64,000 nucleotides of DNA, taken from NCBI RefSeq assembly GCF_007197755.1, contig NZ_CP041636.1, positions 4,190,001-4,254,000 of the forward strand. Direction: 5' to 3'. Positions within the stretch are counted from its first letter, which is position 1. Each line of letters opens with the position of its first letter. Under the pieces are notes generated by a model, which was not told the DNA's origin, did not search any database, and saw only the letters and a program-made list of their open reading frames with translations. This document shows positions 35,559-41,878 of this stretch, piece by piece. This stretch comes from Ferrovibrio terrae (GTDB lineage: Bacteria; Pseudomonadota; Alphaproteobacteria; Ferrovibrionales; Ferrovibrionaceae). The translations under genes and the position numbers were made by a program.

Positions 35559-36281
35559 TCAATACATATGCTGGCCGCCGTTGATGCTGAGCGTCGAGCC
35601 GGTGATGAAACCGCCTTCATCGGCAACCAGGAACAGGACGCCGCGCGCGATTTCCTCGGCGCGTCCCAGCCGGCCGACCGGAATCTTGGCAACGATCTTT
35701 TCCAGCACATTGGCCGGTACCGCCGAGACCATGTCGGTATCGATATAGCCCGGCGCAATCGCGTTCACGGTGATGCCGCGTGCGGCACCTTCCTGCGCCA
35801 GCGCCTTGGTGAAGCCATGGATGGCCGACTTGGCGGCGGCATAGTTCACCTGGCCATACTGACCGGCCTGGCCGTTGATCGAACCGATATTGACGATGCG
35901 GCCAAAGCCGCGCTCGCGCATGCCGTCAATGGCGGCGCGGCACATGTTGAAGCAACCACCCACGTTCGTGTCGATCACCGTCTGCCACTGTTCGGGGCTC
36001 ATCTTGTGCATCGTACCATCGCGCGTGATGCCGGCATTATTGACGATGACATCGACAGGACCGAGATCGCGCTCGATCTGCTTCACGTTCTTGGCGCATT
36101 CCTCATAGTTCGCGACATCGAACTGGTACGTCTTGATGCCGGTTTCGGCCTCGAAGGCCTTGGCGCGCTCGGTATTGCCGGCATAATTCGCCGCCACCTT
36201 GTAGCCGCTCTGATGCAGAAGCTTGGAAATCGCGGCGCCGATTCCTCGGGTGCCGCCAGTGACGATCGCTACGCGGGACAT
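35559..36281 (-). CDS. phaB: Acetoacetyl-CoA reductase
   Basis: An NADPH-dependent SDR that makes (R)-3-hydroxybutyryl-CoA, the PHB monomer. The 240-residue protein has VTGGTRGIGAAISKLLHQSG (cofactor loop at 8-14), NNAGITRDGTMHKMSPEQW, SINGQAGQYGQVNYAAAKSA with the catalytic Ser, Tyr and Lys, and the family C-terminus FITGSTLSINGGQHMY. AGGAGGAAC precedes ATG 36281. It is downstream of phaA but separated by a terminator hairpin, so it probably also has its own promoter. Confidence 0.95.
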   Translation of the reverse strand: MSRVAIVTGGTRGIGAAISKLLHQSGYKVAANYAGNTERAKAFEAETGIKTYQFDVANYEECAKNVKQIERDLGPVDVIVNNAGITRDGTMHKMSPEQWQTVIDTNVGGCFNMCRAAIDGMRERGFGRIVNIGSINGQAGQYGQVNYAAAKSAIHGFTKALAQEGAARGITVNAIAPGYIDTDMVSAVPANVLEKIVAKIPVGRLGRAEEIARGVLFLVADEGGFITGSTLSINGGQHMY

Positions 36282-36409: not shown

Positions 36410-37585
36410 TCAGTCGCGCTCAACACACATCGCGATACCCATGCCGCCGCCGATACACAACGTGGCAAGGCCCTTCTTGGCATCGCGGCGCTGCATTTCA
36501 TACAGCAAGGTCACAAGCACGCGGGCGCCCGAGGCGCCGATCGGATGGCCGATGGCGATGGCGCCGCCATTGACGTTCACCTTGTCGGTATCCCAGCCCA
36601 TATCCTTGTTCACCGCGCAGGCCTGCGCGGCAAAGGCTTCGTTGGCCTCGATCAGGTCGAGGTCGCCGGCCTGCCAGCCCGCCCGCTTCAGGGCTTCGCG
36701 CGATGCCGGAATCGGGCCCGTGCCCATGATCGAGGGATCGACGCCCGACTGCGCCCAGCTGACGATCCGCGCCAGCGGCTTCACACCACGCTTCTTGGCT
36801 TCTTCCGCGCTCATCAGCACCACGGCCGCGGCACCGTCGTTGATGCCCGAGGCATTGCCGGCGGTGACGCTGCCATCCTTGGCAAACGCCGGACGCAGCG
36901 CCTTCATCGCATCGACGGTGGCGCCATGGCGGATGTATTCGTCATTCTCGACCACAGTATCGCCCTTGCGACCCTTGATGGTGACCGGAACGATCTCGTC
37001 CTTGAACTTGCCGGCCTTCTGTGCGGCTTCGGCCTTGTTCTGGCTCTTCACCGCGAAGTCATCCTGGGTCTCGCGGGTGATCTGGAACTGCTTGGCCACA
37101 TTCTCCGCGGTATTGCCCATGTGGTAGCCGTTGAAGGCGTCCCACAGGCCATCACGGATCATGGTGTCGACGAAACCGAGATCGCCCATCTTGTGGCCGG
37201 CACGCAGGTAAGCCGCATGCGGCGCCTGGCTCATGCTTTCCTGGCCGCCGGCAACGACGATGGCGCTGTCGCCGTTCTTCACCGCCTGGAAACCGAGCGC
37301 CACCGCGCGCAGGCCGGAGCCGCACAGCATGTTGACGCCCCAGGCCGGCACTTCCACCGGCAGGCCGGCATTGATCGAGGCCTGGCGCGCCGGGTTCTGA
37401 CCCTGCGCTGCCGTCAGGATCTGCCCCATGATCACTTCGCTGACTTCATTGGGCTGTACGCCGGCGCGCTTCAGCGCGGCATCGATGGCGACCTGGCCGA
37501 GATAATGGGCCGGCACGCCACTGAGCGCGCCGTTGAATGAGCCGACGGGCGTGCGCGCAGCGCTGGCGATGACGATATCGGTCAT
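36410..37585 (-). CDS. phaA: Acetyl-CoA acetyltransferase (beta-ketothiolase)
   Basis: Condenses two acetyl-CoA to acetoacetyl-CoA, the first step to PHB. The 391-residue thiolase has the acyl cysteine C88 in [23 protein letters not shown] in the second half, [10 protein letters not shown] (active-site His) and [14 protein letters not shown] (second Cys). ATG 37585 follows GGAGGACC. Context with phaB, phaC and phaR strongly supports the PHB assignment over a catabolic thiolase. Confidence 0.94.
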
Positions 37586-37691
37586 GGGGTCCTCCATGGA
37601 GCGTATTATTCAGGGCGAGACGATTTATGACGGAAACGATACCGGCTTTTTCGCAAGTGCAGCAAGGCCCCTGCCTGTGTAAAAACGGCCT

Positions 37692-39014
37692 TTATCGCTG
37701 CACTTTGGTCGCACGCTTGCGAAGTTTCTCCGCCTGCGGCGCAGTCTTCGTTACTGGCGTTACGGAAAGCAGCCAGTCGGCCAGCGGCCGCCACAGCCCG
37801 GCCTCGGCGCGCGGGCCTACCATCATGCCGATATGGCCACTGGGCGAGTCCAGCCGTGTTGCCTGCGGCATCTGCGCCAGCAGCGCGGCAGCGCCTTCCT
37901 TGGGCACCAGCTTGTCGCGTTCGGGCAGCACGACCAGGGCCGGCTTTTTCCAGTCCTGCGGTCGCACCGCGCGGTCACCCACCATCCAACGACCGGCGAC
38001 CGGGCGGTTCTCGCCATACCAGCCGATCAGGCATTCGCGCGCCACATCCCCGGCCAGCGGCACGCCGTCGTTGAGCCAGTCTTCCATCGCGACGAAACGC
38101 CGCTCGGCCTCGCCGCCAGCGGGCAGCGTGGCGAACTGCGTGAATTTCTTCAGCGCGGTGAAAGGATCGAGCGCCCAGAAGAACGCCTGCAGCATGTCGA
38201 CATCCAGCATCGGCGGCGCGTCGCCGGCTTTTGCCGCCGGCGGCACCAGAGCGGGCGCCAGCGCCTGCACCAGGGCGGCCTGATGCGCGCCACCGGCATG
38301 GAAATCCCATGGCGTGGCGAGCAGCGCGAGGCCTGCGACATCCTCGGGTGACGCCAATGCCGCAGCGAGCGCGAGATTGCCGCCCATACAATAGCCGACC
38401 AGCAGCGGCGGTTGACCGGTGGTGTCATGCAGATGGCGCAGCGCATGGCAGATGCGTGCAATATAGGCCGCCAGATCGAAATGCTGCTCGGTCTCGCCCG
38501 GATCGCCCCAGTCGAGCAGGAAGGGTCGCAGGCCCTGGCTGGGAAGCCAGCGCGCCAGACTCTGGCCCTCGGCGAGATCGAGCACATAGGCGCGATTGAC
38601 CAGCGACGGCACCAGCAGCACGGGCGAGTTTTCCTTGTCTTGCCCTTGCTCGCCATATGCGAGCAGCCGCGAACTGCCCTCGCGCCACGCGACCGGCGGG
38701 TCCGGCAGATCGCGCCGCCAGCCATGACTGCGATAGCGTTGCAGCCCGGCTGTCATCACGCCCATCCGCGCCAGACCGGCGCGGATCAACGCGGCGTTGA
38801 ATTCATTTGGATCGACGCTTGCGAGCTGGGGCAGCAGGCTGCTGAAGGGCTGCTGCAAGTGCGCCTTCCAGGGCAGCGAGCCGTCTTTCGCAATCGGCCA
38901 GGCGGCGAGCGAGCTCAGCAGCATCAGGTTGGTGGTGGCCAGGTGCAGCGGCAGCGGCCTTGGGCCCGGGCGTGTGTCCGGGCGTATTTCCTGGCGAGCT
39001 TCCCGGGGCGCCAT
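37692..39014 (-). CDS. phaC: Short PHA synthase-like enzyme (PhaC)
   Basis: An alpha/beta-hydrolase-fold polymerase joining 3-hydroxyacyl-CoA units. The 441-residue protein carries the synthase lipase-box variant GYCMGG (nucleophile C209), VVLPERDKLVP with D367, and SPSGHIGMM with H394. VLLVPSLVNRAYVLDL and RPFLLDWGDPGE are PhaC hallmarks. It is much shorter than class I synthases (about 560-600) but longer than class III PhaC (about 355). GGGAGG lies 5 nt before ATG 39014, which fixes the start inside the neighbouring small gene: 212 nt are read in two frames. It may need that small protein as a partner, as class III PhaC needs PhaE. Confidence 0.82.
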   Translation of the reverse strand: MAPREARQEIRPDTRPGPRPLPLHLATTNLMLLSSLAAWPIAKDGSLPWKAHLQQPFSSLLPQLASVDPNEFNAALIRAGLARMGVMTAGLQRYRSHGWRRDLPDPPVAWREGSSRLLAYGEQGQDKENSPVLLVPSLVNRAYVLDLAEGQSLARWLPSQGLRPFLLDWGDPGETEQHFDLAAYIARICHALRHLHDTTGQPPLLVGYCMGGNLALAAALASPEDVAGLALLATPWDFHAGGAHQAALVQALAPALVPPAAKAGDAPPMLDVDMLQAFFWALDPFTALKKFTQFATLPAGGEAERRFVAMEDWLNDGVPLAGDVARECLIGWYGENRPVAGRWMVGDRAVRPQDWKKPALVVLPERDKLVPKEGAAALLAQMPQATRLDSPSGHIGMMVGPRAEAGLWRPLADWLLSVTPVTKTAPQAEKLRKRATKVQR

Positions 39015-39225
39015 GTCCGCCTCCCTGCTGTGTCGCGGCGGCGGCTGCGGCCTGCTGCGCATTCTGGGCGCCCTGCTGCCAAAGCGTCAGCCAGTTGGCC
39101 GAAAGCTCCGCCAGTTTCGGATCGGTCGCCAGCAACCCGGCCTGTTCCTGCCAGAGATCCAGGAAACGCTGCGCCAGTCCCTGGGCATCGCCTCCGCTGC
39201 CAGCTTTTGCCTTCGGATCGTCCAT
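38803..39225 (-). CDS. Small coiled-coil protein overlapping phaC (PhaE/phasin-like?)
   Basis: A 140-residue protein beginning MDDPKAKAGSGGDAQGLAQR, with FLDLWQEQAGLLATDPKLAE and LSANWLTLWQQGAQNAQQ, an amphipathic phasin/PhaE-like N-terminus. A Gly/Pro/Ala-rich linker follows, then a heptad-like helix ELARRLADCERRLAALEGAL and a basic tail RKRRSK. The last half lies inside the phaC coding region in another frame. Position directly before phaC suggests a granule-associated partner or synthase subunit; homology to PhaE is not demonstrated. The ribosome site is weak. Confidence 0.6.
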   Translation of the reverse strand: MDDPKAKAGSGGDAQGLAQRFLDLWQEQAGLLATDPKLAELSANWLTLWQQGAQNAQQAAAAAATQQGGGHGAPGSSPGNTPGHTPGPKAAAAAPGHHQPDAAELARRLADCERRLAALEGALAAALQQPAAPARKRRSK

Positions 39226-39346
39226 GCCCGCCAGCCTACACCGCCGCCCCGCGCCGGGCCATCTTTTCGCGCCGCACAAGACCCTTGCGTATACATACGA
39301 TAATGATGTGAAATACTTTTTAACAAATCCGAGGGAGCGCAGCACC
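39226..39346. promoter_or_regulatory. Divergent phaC / phaR promoter region
   Basis: A 121-nt intergenic region between divergent genes. Its phaR-proximal half (about 39285-39333) is notably AT-rich, including CGTATACATACG and a run of T/A around 39313-39325. On the minus strand TTGTTA and TTATCG are 17 nt apart, a possible but weak promoter. PhaR regulators usually repress their own gene and granule genes, so an operator here is likely; I could not identify it with confidence. Confidence 0.4.
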
Positions 39347-39961
39347 GTGGCCGAGACCGACCAGACGACAGGGGCTCAGACGACAGGGGCGCCGGTCGTA
39401 AAGATCAAAAAGTATGCAAACCGGCGGCTGTACAACACGGCGACGTCTTCCTACGTGACTCTGGAAAACCTGTGCCAGATGGTTAAGGACGGCCAGGATT
39501 TCCTCGTTGAGGACGCCAAGTCCGGGGAAGACATCACCCGCGGCGTGCTGGCCCAGATCATTTTCGAGGAAGAGTCCAAGGGCGGCCAGCAGCTGCTGCC
39601 GATCGGCTTCCTGCGCCGGCTGATCTCTTTCTACGGCGACAGCCTGCAGACCCTGGTGCCGAGCTATCTCGAAATCTCGATGACCTCGTTCCAGCGCAAT
39701 CAGGACCAGATGCGCCAATATATGGCGGAATCCTTCGGCGAGATGTTCCCGTTCCGCAGCATCGAGGAAATGGGCCGTCAGAACATGCAGATGTTCCAGC
39801 GCGCCATGACCATGTTCAATCCCTTCGTCGCCGGAGCCGATGGCGACAAGGCGGCCGGCACGGGCGACAAACCCGGCGAGCCGGTCGAGGTCGATGTGCT
39901 GAAAAAGCAGATGGAAGAGCTGCGCAAGCAGGTTGAAGCGCTTGCCCGAACCAAGGGGTAA
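39347..39961 (+). CDS. phaR: Polyhydroxyalkanoate synthesis regulator PhaR
   Basis: A transcriptional repressor that senses PHA granules by binding polymer. The 204-residue protein starts with GTG 39347 (GAGGGAG upstream). After a short Thr-rich tail, the PHB/PHA accumulation domain reads KIKKYANRRLYNTATSSYVT and LENLCQMVKDGQDFLVEDAK. The second domain is QQLLPIGFLRRLISFYGDSL. A C-terminal helix (VDVLKKQMEELRKQVEALAR) probably mediates oligomers. The upstream frame extends far but lies over the phaC-side genes and is not coding. It is divergent from phaC. Confidence 0.93.
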   Translation: MAETDQTTGAQTTGAPVVKIKKYANRRLYNTATSSYVTLENLCQMVKDGQDFLVEDAKSGEDITRGVLAQIIFEEESKGGQQLLPIGFLRRLISFYGDSLQTLVPSYLEISMTSFQRNQDQMRQYMAESFGEMFPFRSIEEMGRQNMQMFQRAMTMFNPFVAGADGDKAAGTGDKPGEPVEVDVLKKQMEELRKQVEALARTKG

Positions 39962-39988: not shown

Positions 39989-41878
39989 TTGACTGAACCC
40001 CTGCCAACCGTCAACCCGCCGCCCGAGGCGGGCCGCCATCGTGTGCGCCTGTCGATTTCGCGCGTGCTGACCGTCGGCGTCGGCGCATTGATGCTGCTGG
40101 CCGGCCTCGCCTATGGCATCGCACTGGTCAGCGGCCGTCTCAACACCGTTGAACTGCTGCGCGACCGCAACGACCGCATCGTCAACCGGCTGACCGAGCG
40201 CACGCAGCAGCAGCTCGATCCAGCCGCACGCCAGGTCGAGATGCTGCGTCAGCGGCTGCAGACCAGGCAGATCGGCATCAACGAAATCGGCCGCCTGACC
40301 GATTACATGGTGGCGACGCTGGATGCGCTGCCGCAGGTGGATGCCATCGCCTTCCTGCGCAACGACCTGATCGCAACGCGCGTGCAGCGCCACCCGGGCG
40401 GGCGCTATGAACCGCTGCACGACTCGATTGCCGACTATTTTGACCGGCCTGCCCGCGAGGAAGCCGTGCGGCGCCTGCGCGAAACTGCCGGTCGCACCGA
40501 CGCATACCGCAACCCGGTCGGCTGGGGCGCGCTGATCTGGAACCCCGATATCGGCCAGGCACTGATCAATGCCCATGCGCCGGTGGTGCTGGACAACATC
40601 TTTATCGGCGAAGCGCTGGCCGTGGTGTCGCTCGGCACGCTGACGCGCCTTTTGGAAACCGACAGTACGGATGGCGAGGCCGTCAACTTCATCCTCTACG
40701 GCGATGATGCCGTGCTGGCGCATCCCACGCTGCTGAACCACGACTACAAGCTGTCGATGGAAAAGCCCGTGCCACGGCTGCAGGATATCCATGATCCGGT
40801 GCTGCAGAATATCTGGAGCGGACAGATCGACATGCTGGCGGCCCGCGCCATGCTGGGCAGCGACGGCGCGCATATCGTCGAGGCCGAGAATCGTCGCTGG
40901 ATTTTCGTCTACCGCCGCCTCAACGTGTATGGCGAAACGCCCTGGCTCGTCGGCCGCTACTTCCCCTTCGATCTGGTCGAAACCGAGGTGAACCGCCTGC
41001 GGGTATCGGTGGTCGTCGGCGGCATCAGCCTGATCCTGTCGCTGCTGGTGGCATGGCGTCTCGGTCATCTGATCCGCAAGCCGCTGCTGGCGATCGGCGA
41101 TGCCGCCAACCGCCTGCGCAACCTGGATTTCGACACACCTCCGCTGGAACGCACACGCCTGCGCGAACTGGACGACGCCGCCCAGGCGATCAACGCCGCC
41201 AATGCCGCGCTGCGCTGGTTCGGCAACTATGTGCCGCGCAAGCTGGTCAACCGGCTGGTGCGCGAGGGCGAAGACGCGATCAATACCAGCAAGGAGCGCC
41301 CCGTCACCGTGATGTTCACCGACCTGGTCGGCTTCACGGCCATGTCGGAGCAGATGAGCGCGCAGGAAACCGCCGATATCCTGAACGAGCATTTTGCGCT
41401 GGTAACCGCCTGCATCGAAGGCACCGGCGGCATCGTCGACAAATTCATCGGCGACGCGGTGATGGCCGTCTGGGGCGCGATCAAGCGCGACGAGGACCAC
41501 GCCGCCAATGCCTGTCGTGCGGTGGACGAAATCTGCAAGGCGCTGGCCGCCGACAATGCGCGCCATGCCATGCTGGGCAAACCGATCCTGCGCATGCGCA
41601 TCGGCCTGCATTCCGGTCCGGTCGTGATCGGCAATATCGGTGCGCCCGGCCGCATCAACTACACCGTGGTGGGTGACACGGTGAATACCGCCCAGCGGCT
41701 GGAACAGCTTGGCCATGACCACCAGCAGGACAGCGAGCAGTTCATCGCGCTGGTCAGTGCCGAAACTGTGACGTCAGCCGGCTTCGACCCCCGCCCGCCG
41801 TATGTCGGCCGCATGGCGGTGAAGGGCCGCATGGGTGAGATCGAGGTCTATCGTCTCGACCGGCTGGCAAAATCGTGA
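39989..41878 (+). CDS. Membrane sensor adenylate/guanylate cyclase
   Basis: A 629-residue class III cyclase. The first helix is at about 23-47 (ISRVLTVGVGALMLLAGLAY). A large periplasmic sensory region (about 48-330) follows, then a second helix near 333-355 (VSVVVGGISLILSLLVAW), a HAMP-like linker, and a C-terminal catalytic domain with VMFTDLVGFTAMSEQMSAQE (first metal Asp), IVDKFIGDAVMAVWGA (second Asp) and RINYTVVGDTVNTAQRLEQL (substrate binding). The start is TTG 39989 with no clear ribosome site; nearby in-frame GTG codons are alternatives. It follows phaR by 27 nt. Confidence 0.88.
   Translation: MTEPLPTVNPPPEAGRHRVRLSISRVLTVGVGALMLLAGLAYGIALVSGRLNTVELLRDRNDRIVNRLTERTQQQLDPAARQVEMLRQRLQTRQIGINEIGRLTDYMVATLDALPQVDAIAFLRNDLIATRVQRHPGGRYEPLHDSIADYFDRPAREEAVRRLRETAGRTDAYRNPVGWGALIWNPDIGQALINAHAPVVLDNIFIGEALAVVSLGTLTRLLETDSTDGEAVNFILYGDDAVLAHPTLLNHDYKLSMEKPVPRLQDIHDPVLQNIWSGQIDMLAARAMLGSDGAHIVEAENRRWIFVYRRLNVYGETPWLVGRYFPFDLVETEVNRLRVSVVVGGISLILSLLVAWRLGHLIRKPLLAIGDAANRLRNLDFDTPPLERTRLRELDDAAQAINAANAALRWFGNYVPRKLVNRLVREGEDAINTSKERPVTVMFTDLVGFTAMSEQMSAQETADILNEHFALVTACIEGTGGIVDKFIGDAVMAVWGAIKRDEDHAANACRAVDEICKALAADNARHAMLGKPILRMRIGLHSGPVVIGNIGAPGRINYTVVGDTVNTAQRLEQLGHDHQQDSEQFIALVSAETVTSAGFDPRPPYVGRMAVKGRMGEIEVYRLDRLAKS

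Follow-up and report, generated by a model that had tools for sequence, protein, structure and literature searches.

A small gene overlapping the gene of a short PHA synthase in Ferrovibrio terrae and other Alphaproteobacteria, and its candidate role as a synthase subunit

The analyzed DNA (the window) is a stretch of 64,000 nucleotides from the genome of Ferrovibrio terrae, which consists of a single contig of 4.26 Mb. On the minus strand of the window, a small open reading frame, hereafter referred to as E, extends from an ATG at 39225 to a TGA ending at 38803 and encodes 140 aa according to the ORF list and the translation. The phaC gene of a short PHA synthase occupies positions 39014..37692 of the same strand. 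Its ATG at 39014 lies inside E, and the two genes share 212 nt (38803..39014, minus strand) that are read in two frames, the PhaC frame being the E frame +1. A GGGAGG ribosome-binding site of phaC (39020..39025, minus strand) is also located inside E, with a 5-nt spacer to the ATG; a second in-frame ATG of phaC at 39062 (456-aa ORF) likewise falls within E. The positions of the small frame, the phaC ATG, the GGGAGG site and the overlap had been given in a preliminary description of this DNA, and all were found to be correct when rechecked, while the PhaC length of 441 residues given there includes the stop codon and the protein has 440 aa. A degenerate −10-like hexamer, TAGGCT, is present at 39233..39238 (minus strand), 7 nt 5′ of the E ATG.

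The next gene downstream of phaC in the ORF list is presumably phaA, encoding acetyl-CoA acetyltransferase (36410..37597, minus strand), and is followed by a gene that we take to be phaB, encoding acetoacetyl-CoA reductase (35559..36281, minus strand). A divergent gene on the plus strand (39347..39961, 204 aa, GTG start, translation checked) is presumably phaR, the regulator of PHA synthesis. These three names are suggested by the sequences, and they agree with the gene order of Azospirillum, for phaR with that of the Azospirillum plasmid records. On this reading, E and phaC are the first two genes of a PHB operon (E-phaC-phaA-phaB), phaR being divergent. Directly after phaR, a 629-aa frame (39989-41878, plus strand) reads by eye like an adenylate/guanylate cyclase.

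Within the family of the window's organism, E was found in 17 of 18 genomes, and in all 17 of them phaC overlaps E by 188–278 nt in the same frame (left out were rows L018 and L020, each a further piece of a gene already counted, and rows L019 and L021, which have no pair). A search of 385 genomes of the class Alphaproteobacteria detected E in 130 (E-value ≤ 0.001) and the short PhaC in 166 (E-value ≤ 1e-40). A total of 122 loci picked by E were compared (17 from the family and 105 from the class), and overlapping open frames on the same strand and in the same register were present in 122 of 122. Twenty of the 130 genomes with an E match, mostly the weakest, were not fetched via E; ten of these were fetched later via PhaC and ten never, and in G210 and G231, which belong to the former ten, the E match is not the frame beside PhaC. 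Seventeen of the 166 genomes with the short PhaC were not fetched. The length of the overlap, determined for the 120 of 122 loci with assigned start codons, has a median of 212 nt (range 68–320). The conserved GPRPL motif of PhaC falls inside the overlap, and the E stop codon is located at a median of 161 nt past this motif (107 loci; exactly 161 nt in 23; range −10 to 287). A start of phaC downstream of 38803, which the preliminary description had named as evidence against the overlap, is therefore contradicted by the position of the motif.

When titled genome loci were selected by PhaC alone, 80 of 80, including those of Azospirillum, Thalassospira, Magnetospirillum and others, had E in the +1 register. 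As these loci match the window's PhaC best, they under-sample distant PhaCs, and 13 of them are contigs that had already been compared. The pair that the preliminary description had proposed to seek in related genomes was thus recovered starting from either gene. The dual-coded pair is real, widespread in Alphaproteobacteria and far beyond chance. Outside the class, five genomes of a 299-genome sample of the phylum gave weak partial matches to E (27–31 bits) in its coiled-coil part. E-like matches away from PhaC are weak, and in the loci fetched E adjoins this PhaC lineage.

Orthologous phaC genes lacking the small frame, which had also been named in advance as evidence against a dual gene, do exist. 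Among the 138 of 145 class loci that have the PhaC N-terminus, E is in register in 126 (E-value < 1e-3) and absent in 12. One of these 12 loci (L175) is cut by a contig end, and at least three (L158, L159, L161) retain a piece resembling the N-terminus of E. In 4 of the 126 loci the stop codon of E comes less than 90 nt after the point at which PhaC homology begins, and in two of these it precedes that point. E is present in 21 of the 33 loci with a PhaC N-terminus that were fetched via PhaC on account of a weak or missing E match. Three loci of family f42 (L153, L158 and L178) carry the N-terminus of E in short frames of 68, 103 and 79 codons, and lack the C-terminal part over phaC; they represent a naturally shortened or decaying E. 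Loci with a shortened E (L151, L153, L178) were kept apart from the E-less group. In the 65-row PhaC tree described below, nine E-less rows require three changes, and the E-less PhaCs sit within the short-PhaC clade or at its unresolved base, which makes loss of E the simpler reading. Loss therefore likely accounts for the E-less loci, with a later gain of E being the alternative. The existence of lineages that have PhaC and no E, or a shortened one, indicates that E is not always required.

The constraint on both frames was assessed by a recoding test, in which phaC was synonymously recoded with codons drawn from the same gene and the E frame was scored by a profile. The profile was built from the window's family only, and the loci were outside the window's genus; 73 of 75 PhaC-selected loci were used, two without the motif being left out. 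In each of the 73 loci the real sequence outscored the shuffled ones at p ≤ 0.05, and in 72 of them it did so at p ≤ 0.005; the mean z was 5.7. For three control stretches further down phaC, the mean z was 1.0, 1.7 and 0.7, and the share of loci with z > 1.65 was 32%, 60% (codons 120–170) and 18%, respectively; the test thus has a baseline, which is well below the overlap. An earlier test of the same kind on E-chosen loci gave p ≤ 0.05 in 86 of 89.

In addition, differences at third codon positions of phaC were less frequent in the overlap than downstream of it in Ferrovibrio (0.21 vs. 0.415), Azospirillum (0.249 vs. 0.324), Thalassospira (0.171 vs. 0.424) and Magnetospirillum (0.289 vs. 0.436). 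When third positions are related to the others, the ratio drops in three genera (2.0 to 1.3, 2.8 to 1.8 and 3.5 to 2.7); Magnetospirillum, in which differences are fewer at every position, shows no drop (1.87 to 1.98). The part of E beyond the overlap has the normal codon periodicity of its own frame in each of the four genera. When the overlap stretch was scored for E, the median was −0.9 bits in 10 motif-bearing loci without E (open in 5) vs. 34.1 bits in 103 loci with E (open in 99), a control that is partly circular since the two groups were defined by an E profile. Synonymous recoding by itself leaves the E frame open with a mean probability of 0.55 (106 loci), and the openness of the frame is by itself weak evidence. 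Judged from these comparisons of sequences, both frames are under purifying selection within the overlap. The substitution patterns that the preliminary description had proposed to examine thus speak for dual coding: they do not conserve the phaC frame only, E being constrained too in 73 of 73 loci, and together with the fixed register they bear out the earlier claim that both genes are genuine.

As for the start of E, a TAYANT hexamer ending 4–14 nt before the E ATG, mostly 6–8 nt, was found in 131 of 205 loci vs. 4 of 205 for a control stretch. In most relatives this −10 box is TATACT or TATAGT, the window's TAGGCT being a degenerate copy. A motif resembling a Shine–Dalgarno (SD) sequence precedes the E ATG in 21 of 205 loci. 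In a non-redundant set of 146 loci, whose upstream sequences are less than 60% alike, the −10 box was present in 88 loci vs. 4 for the control, and a TTGnC-like −35 element was noted. The layout of a leaderless transcript, in which a −10 box precedes the start codon by about 7 nt and an SD sequence is missing, is found in relatives (−10 box in 131 of 205). The fixed distance of this promoter-like box from the ATG in relatives suggests that the message from which E is translated is probably leaderless.

As for the start of phaC, an in-frame ATG is present within 45 codons before the phaC motif in 174 of 206 loci, and for the ATG nearest to the motif the median SD pairing energy is −5.7 kcal/mol vs. 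−2.7 kcal/mol for control ATGs inside phaC (n = 174 and 1510, respectively). Of 214 loci, 210 have a start codon in the PhaC frame upstream of the motif; among the four that do not, L095 and L104 are false motif hits. The other two (L071 and L085, same genus) have no ATG, GTG or TTG in the PhaC frame before GPRPL; in both, AGGAG is followed by an ATT that may serve as a non-standard start codon.

According to the AlphaFold2 model (mean pLDDT 81.7, pTM 0.34), E consists of helices at residues 10–33 and 36–67, a linker, a helix at residues 102–128 and a tail; the overlap encodes the linker, the third helix and the tail. The model agrees with the anatomy proposed earlier from the letters (amphipathic N-terminus, low-complexity linker, heptad helix and basic tail). 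The net charge of the last 25 residues of E is +5 in the median (n = 222), and residues of E are conserved across the class, in the overlap as well as beyond it. No Pfam family reaches its cut-off for the window's E, NCBIfam gives no match, and a fold search with its predicted structure gave no match. For 104 E members (122 sequences minus 18 near copies or ill-defined ones), scattered weak matches to unrelated families were noted among the matches listed (first 25 per library), and the sequence matches of E in the PDB are mostly designed or generic coiled coils (60 of 83 listed). DUF7310 was considered as the family of E, since it was matched in 55 of the 104 members (best E-value 4e-5); the window's E matches it with an E-value of 0.017, at 16 of 40 bits and over residues 98–125 only, and DUF7310 was taken as a generic coiled coil.

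The window's PhaC shows the general traits of PHA synthases, with conserved Cys, Asp and His, a PhaC_N or alpha/beta hydrolase match and the PhaC fold. The PhaC_N match has 25.0 bits at a cut-off of 23.7. C209, D367 and H394 are invariant in 17 of 17 PhaC sequences of the family; we take them to be the catalytic triad, by analogy with class I enzymes. In a quick tree of 65 rows, in which long branches were flagged by the program and class IV was represented by one row only, 42 short PhaCs formed one group (SH-aLRT 99.9) vs. 23 rows of classes I, III and IV, and on this tree the short PhaCs form a clade of their own. The earlier picture of a conserved pair, in which the small partner accompanies a PhaC lineage of its own, is thus supported by the locus counts and by the tree.

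Among the known synthases, class III (PhaC–PhaE) resembles the pair in Novosphingobium, where a gene for a small helical partner lies directly upstream of a short PhaC and where PhaE (121 aa) ends, by eye, in a helix and a basic tail, as E does. However, the Novosphingobium phaE and phaC genes do not overlap (plasmid pNL2, L274:1484-2933, where the 121-aa PhaE is encoded upstream of PhaC). The window's PhaC, moreover, belongs to another clade, and the class III model TIGR01836, although its best NCBIfam match, gives 152.1 bits, far under the cut-off of 365.3. The PhaE family PF09712 has no match in the window's genome, the window's E is not matched by it at an E-value ≤ 10, and the family was matched in 3 of 142 class genomes. 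Residues 3–73 of the Novosphingobium PhaE match the PhaR subunit of Priestia with an E-value of 5e-4, which links the small PhaE with PhaR. Class IV PHA synthase (PhaC–PhaR of Bacillus and Priestia) is a two-part enzyme and likewise has a gene for a small coiled-coil subunit nearby, but phbB separates phaR and phaC, which do not overlap, PhaR has 199 aa, and the window's PhaC falls in a separate clade of the tree with its one class IV row. Homology of E to PhaE/PhaR was considered, and hhalign gave no significant match (P 0.038, probability 1.4%) with a five-sequence template.

Class I enzymes provide the best PDB fold matches of the window's PhaC (9knl, 9knj and 5hz2), but they are single chains of about 600 aa, and the class I model TIGR01838 gives the window's 440-aa PhaC 82.1 bits at a cut-off of 622.65. 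A small partner is not known to be part of class I PHA synthase. The class I N-terminal stretch DPNRLAEAQMKLWQDYAKLW resembles residues 13–32 of E, a likeness that is not significant in a profile comparison (P 0.02 over 20 columns). The window's genome additionally encodes a class I PhaC (G000:C1:3241090-3242946), and a class I-like match was found in 34 of 58 class genomes searched.

On balance, the explanation that we favor, and hold to be somewhat better than evenly supported, is that of two genuine overlapping genes, with E translated first from a leaderless message, phaC started internally and E serving as an accessory subunit of the PhaE/PhaR kind. Transcription would start at or beside the A of the E ATG and give a leaderless mRNA; as such a message begins at the ATG of E, E would be translated first, and ribosomes would also initiate phaC internally, at the SD site within E. 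We infer that E is expressed and binds PhaC, serving the short enzyme as a subunit in the way that PhaE does in class III or PhaR in class IV. Its two N-terminal helices may touch PhaC or the nascent granule, the C-terminal helix may form a coiled-coil oligomer, and the basic tail may bind an acidic partner such as DNA. The role of a small accessory subunit of the short PhaC is the most likely one for E in our analysis, since E has the same place and a similar layout as the 121-aa PhaE of Novosphingobium; it is weakened by the non-significant profile match to PhaE/PhaR and by the lineages without E.

A rather unlikely alternative is that E, made together with PhaC, is no synthase subunit and links granule and nucleoid in the manner of phasins or PhaM, its helices lying on the PHB granule and its basic tail on DNA. 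PhaM has helices and a basic tail, and E resembles it in the helical N-terminus of the AlphaFold2 model and in the charge of its tail. However, the E gene overlaps phaC, it stands beside the short PhaC lineage in the loci fetched with E-like matches elsewhere being weak, and no phasin family appears among the 25 listed of 57 Pfam families matched by the 104 E members. A. brasilense Sp7, moreover, already has six Phasin_2 proteins, according to the available passages of the source (PMC6761214).

We consider it improbable that E is mainly a translated leader, which sets the level of PhaC translation and whose peptide matters little. The probable leaderless start and the initiation of phaC inside the frame would suit a leader, but a purely regulatory one needs no conserved helix or basic tail, and the residues of E are conserved throughout the class, inside and outside the overlap. 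A programmed +1 frameshift fusing E to PhaC in one polypeptide would agree with the single fixed register of the overlapping open frames (122 of 122) and with L071 and L085, which have no usual start codon before the PhaC motif; nevertheless, it is very improbable, given the upstream start codon in 210 of 214 loci, the two false motif hits among the four exceptions, the AGGAG before ATT in the other two and the SD pairing enriched at phaC starts. That E is an artefact, a high-GC frame held open by the codons of phaC, is hardly credible despite the frame often staying open in recoded phaC, as it is refuted at the sequence level by the recoding test and the codon positions and opposed by the promoter and by the partly circular difference in bit scores between loci without and with E.

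Under the favored explanation, with E as a subunit, the pair might constitute a further class of PHA synthase, a proposal on which we regard the evidence as evenly poised. Such a class would consist of a short PhaC and an overlooked subunit, specified by a leaderless message with an internal phaC start; the C-terminal helix of E would be encoded in the second frame of the phaC N-terminus, and both chains would come from one message. It would be known so far only from Alphaproteobacteria, including phaC1AB of R. rubrum and phbCAB of Azospirillum. The preliminary description had suggested an under-described two-subunit type of synthase; a separate PhaC clade, the small partner and the under-described nature of the type are upheld, whereas the part that makes E a subunit of the enzyme is a presumption of our analysis. 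In many alphaproteobacteria E probably gives rise to a helper protein for PhaC, and the records checked carry no label for it. The engineering of PHA synthases serves the making of bioplastics. The pair, whose overlap of some 200 nt on one strand is kept across a bacterial class and whose dual selection is readable from many genomes, also presents a case of a conserved gene missed by annotation.

The genome of R. rubrum (G905) was recognized by the published phaC1 and phaC2 primer pairs, as given in the available part of the source (PMC9999600). Its phaC1 (L329) encodes a short PhaC and is preceded by an E of 123 aa, whose stop codon follows GPRPL by 152 nt and the PhaC ATG by 185 nt. PhaC2 (Rru_A2413) was considered as the ortholog of the window's PhaC and rejected, as its locus is of class I and has no E match, and phaC1 is the ortholog. 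In R. rubrum, PhaC1 of phaC1AB is thus of the short lineage and PhaC2 of class I. In the passages available, PhaC2 is reported to be the main synthase (PMC9999600), and phaC1 was studied and over-expressed as a single gene (PMC4026134). If PhaC1 of R. rubrum has a missed partner, figures for its activity and yield may come from an enzyme without E.

No description of the overlap or of E was found in the titles and abstracts returned by literature searches of open-licence papers. Passages on Defluviicoccus report that phaC and phaE are co-located (PMC9041414). In the passages available of a review of the PHB genes of A. brasilense, the phbCAB operon is mentioned and “phaE” does not occur (PMC10383645). 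Four Azospirillum plasmid records, out of seven long matches, have E in their DNA; these four list no gene at E, the PLSDB gene tables being incomplete. In these records, phaC itself is named “alpha/beta fold hydrolase”.
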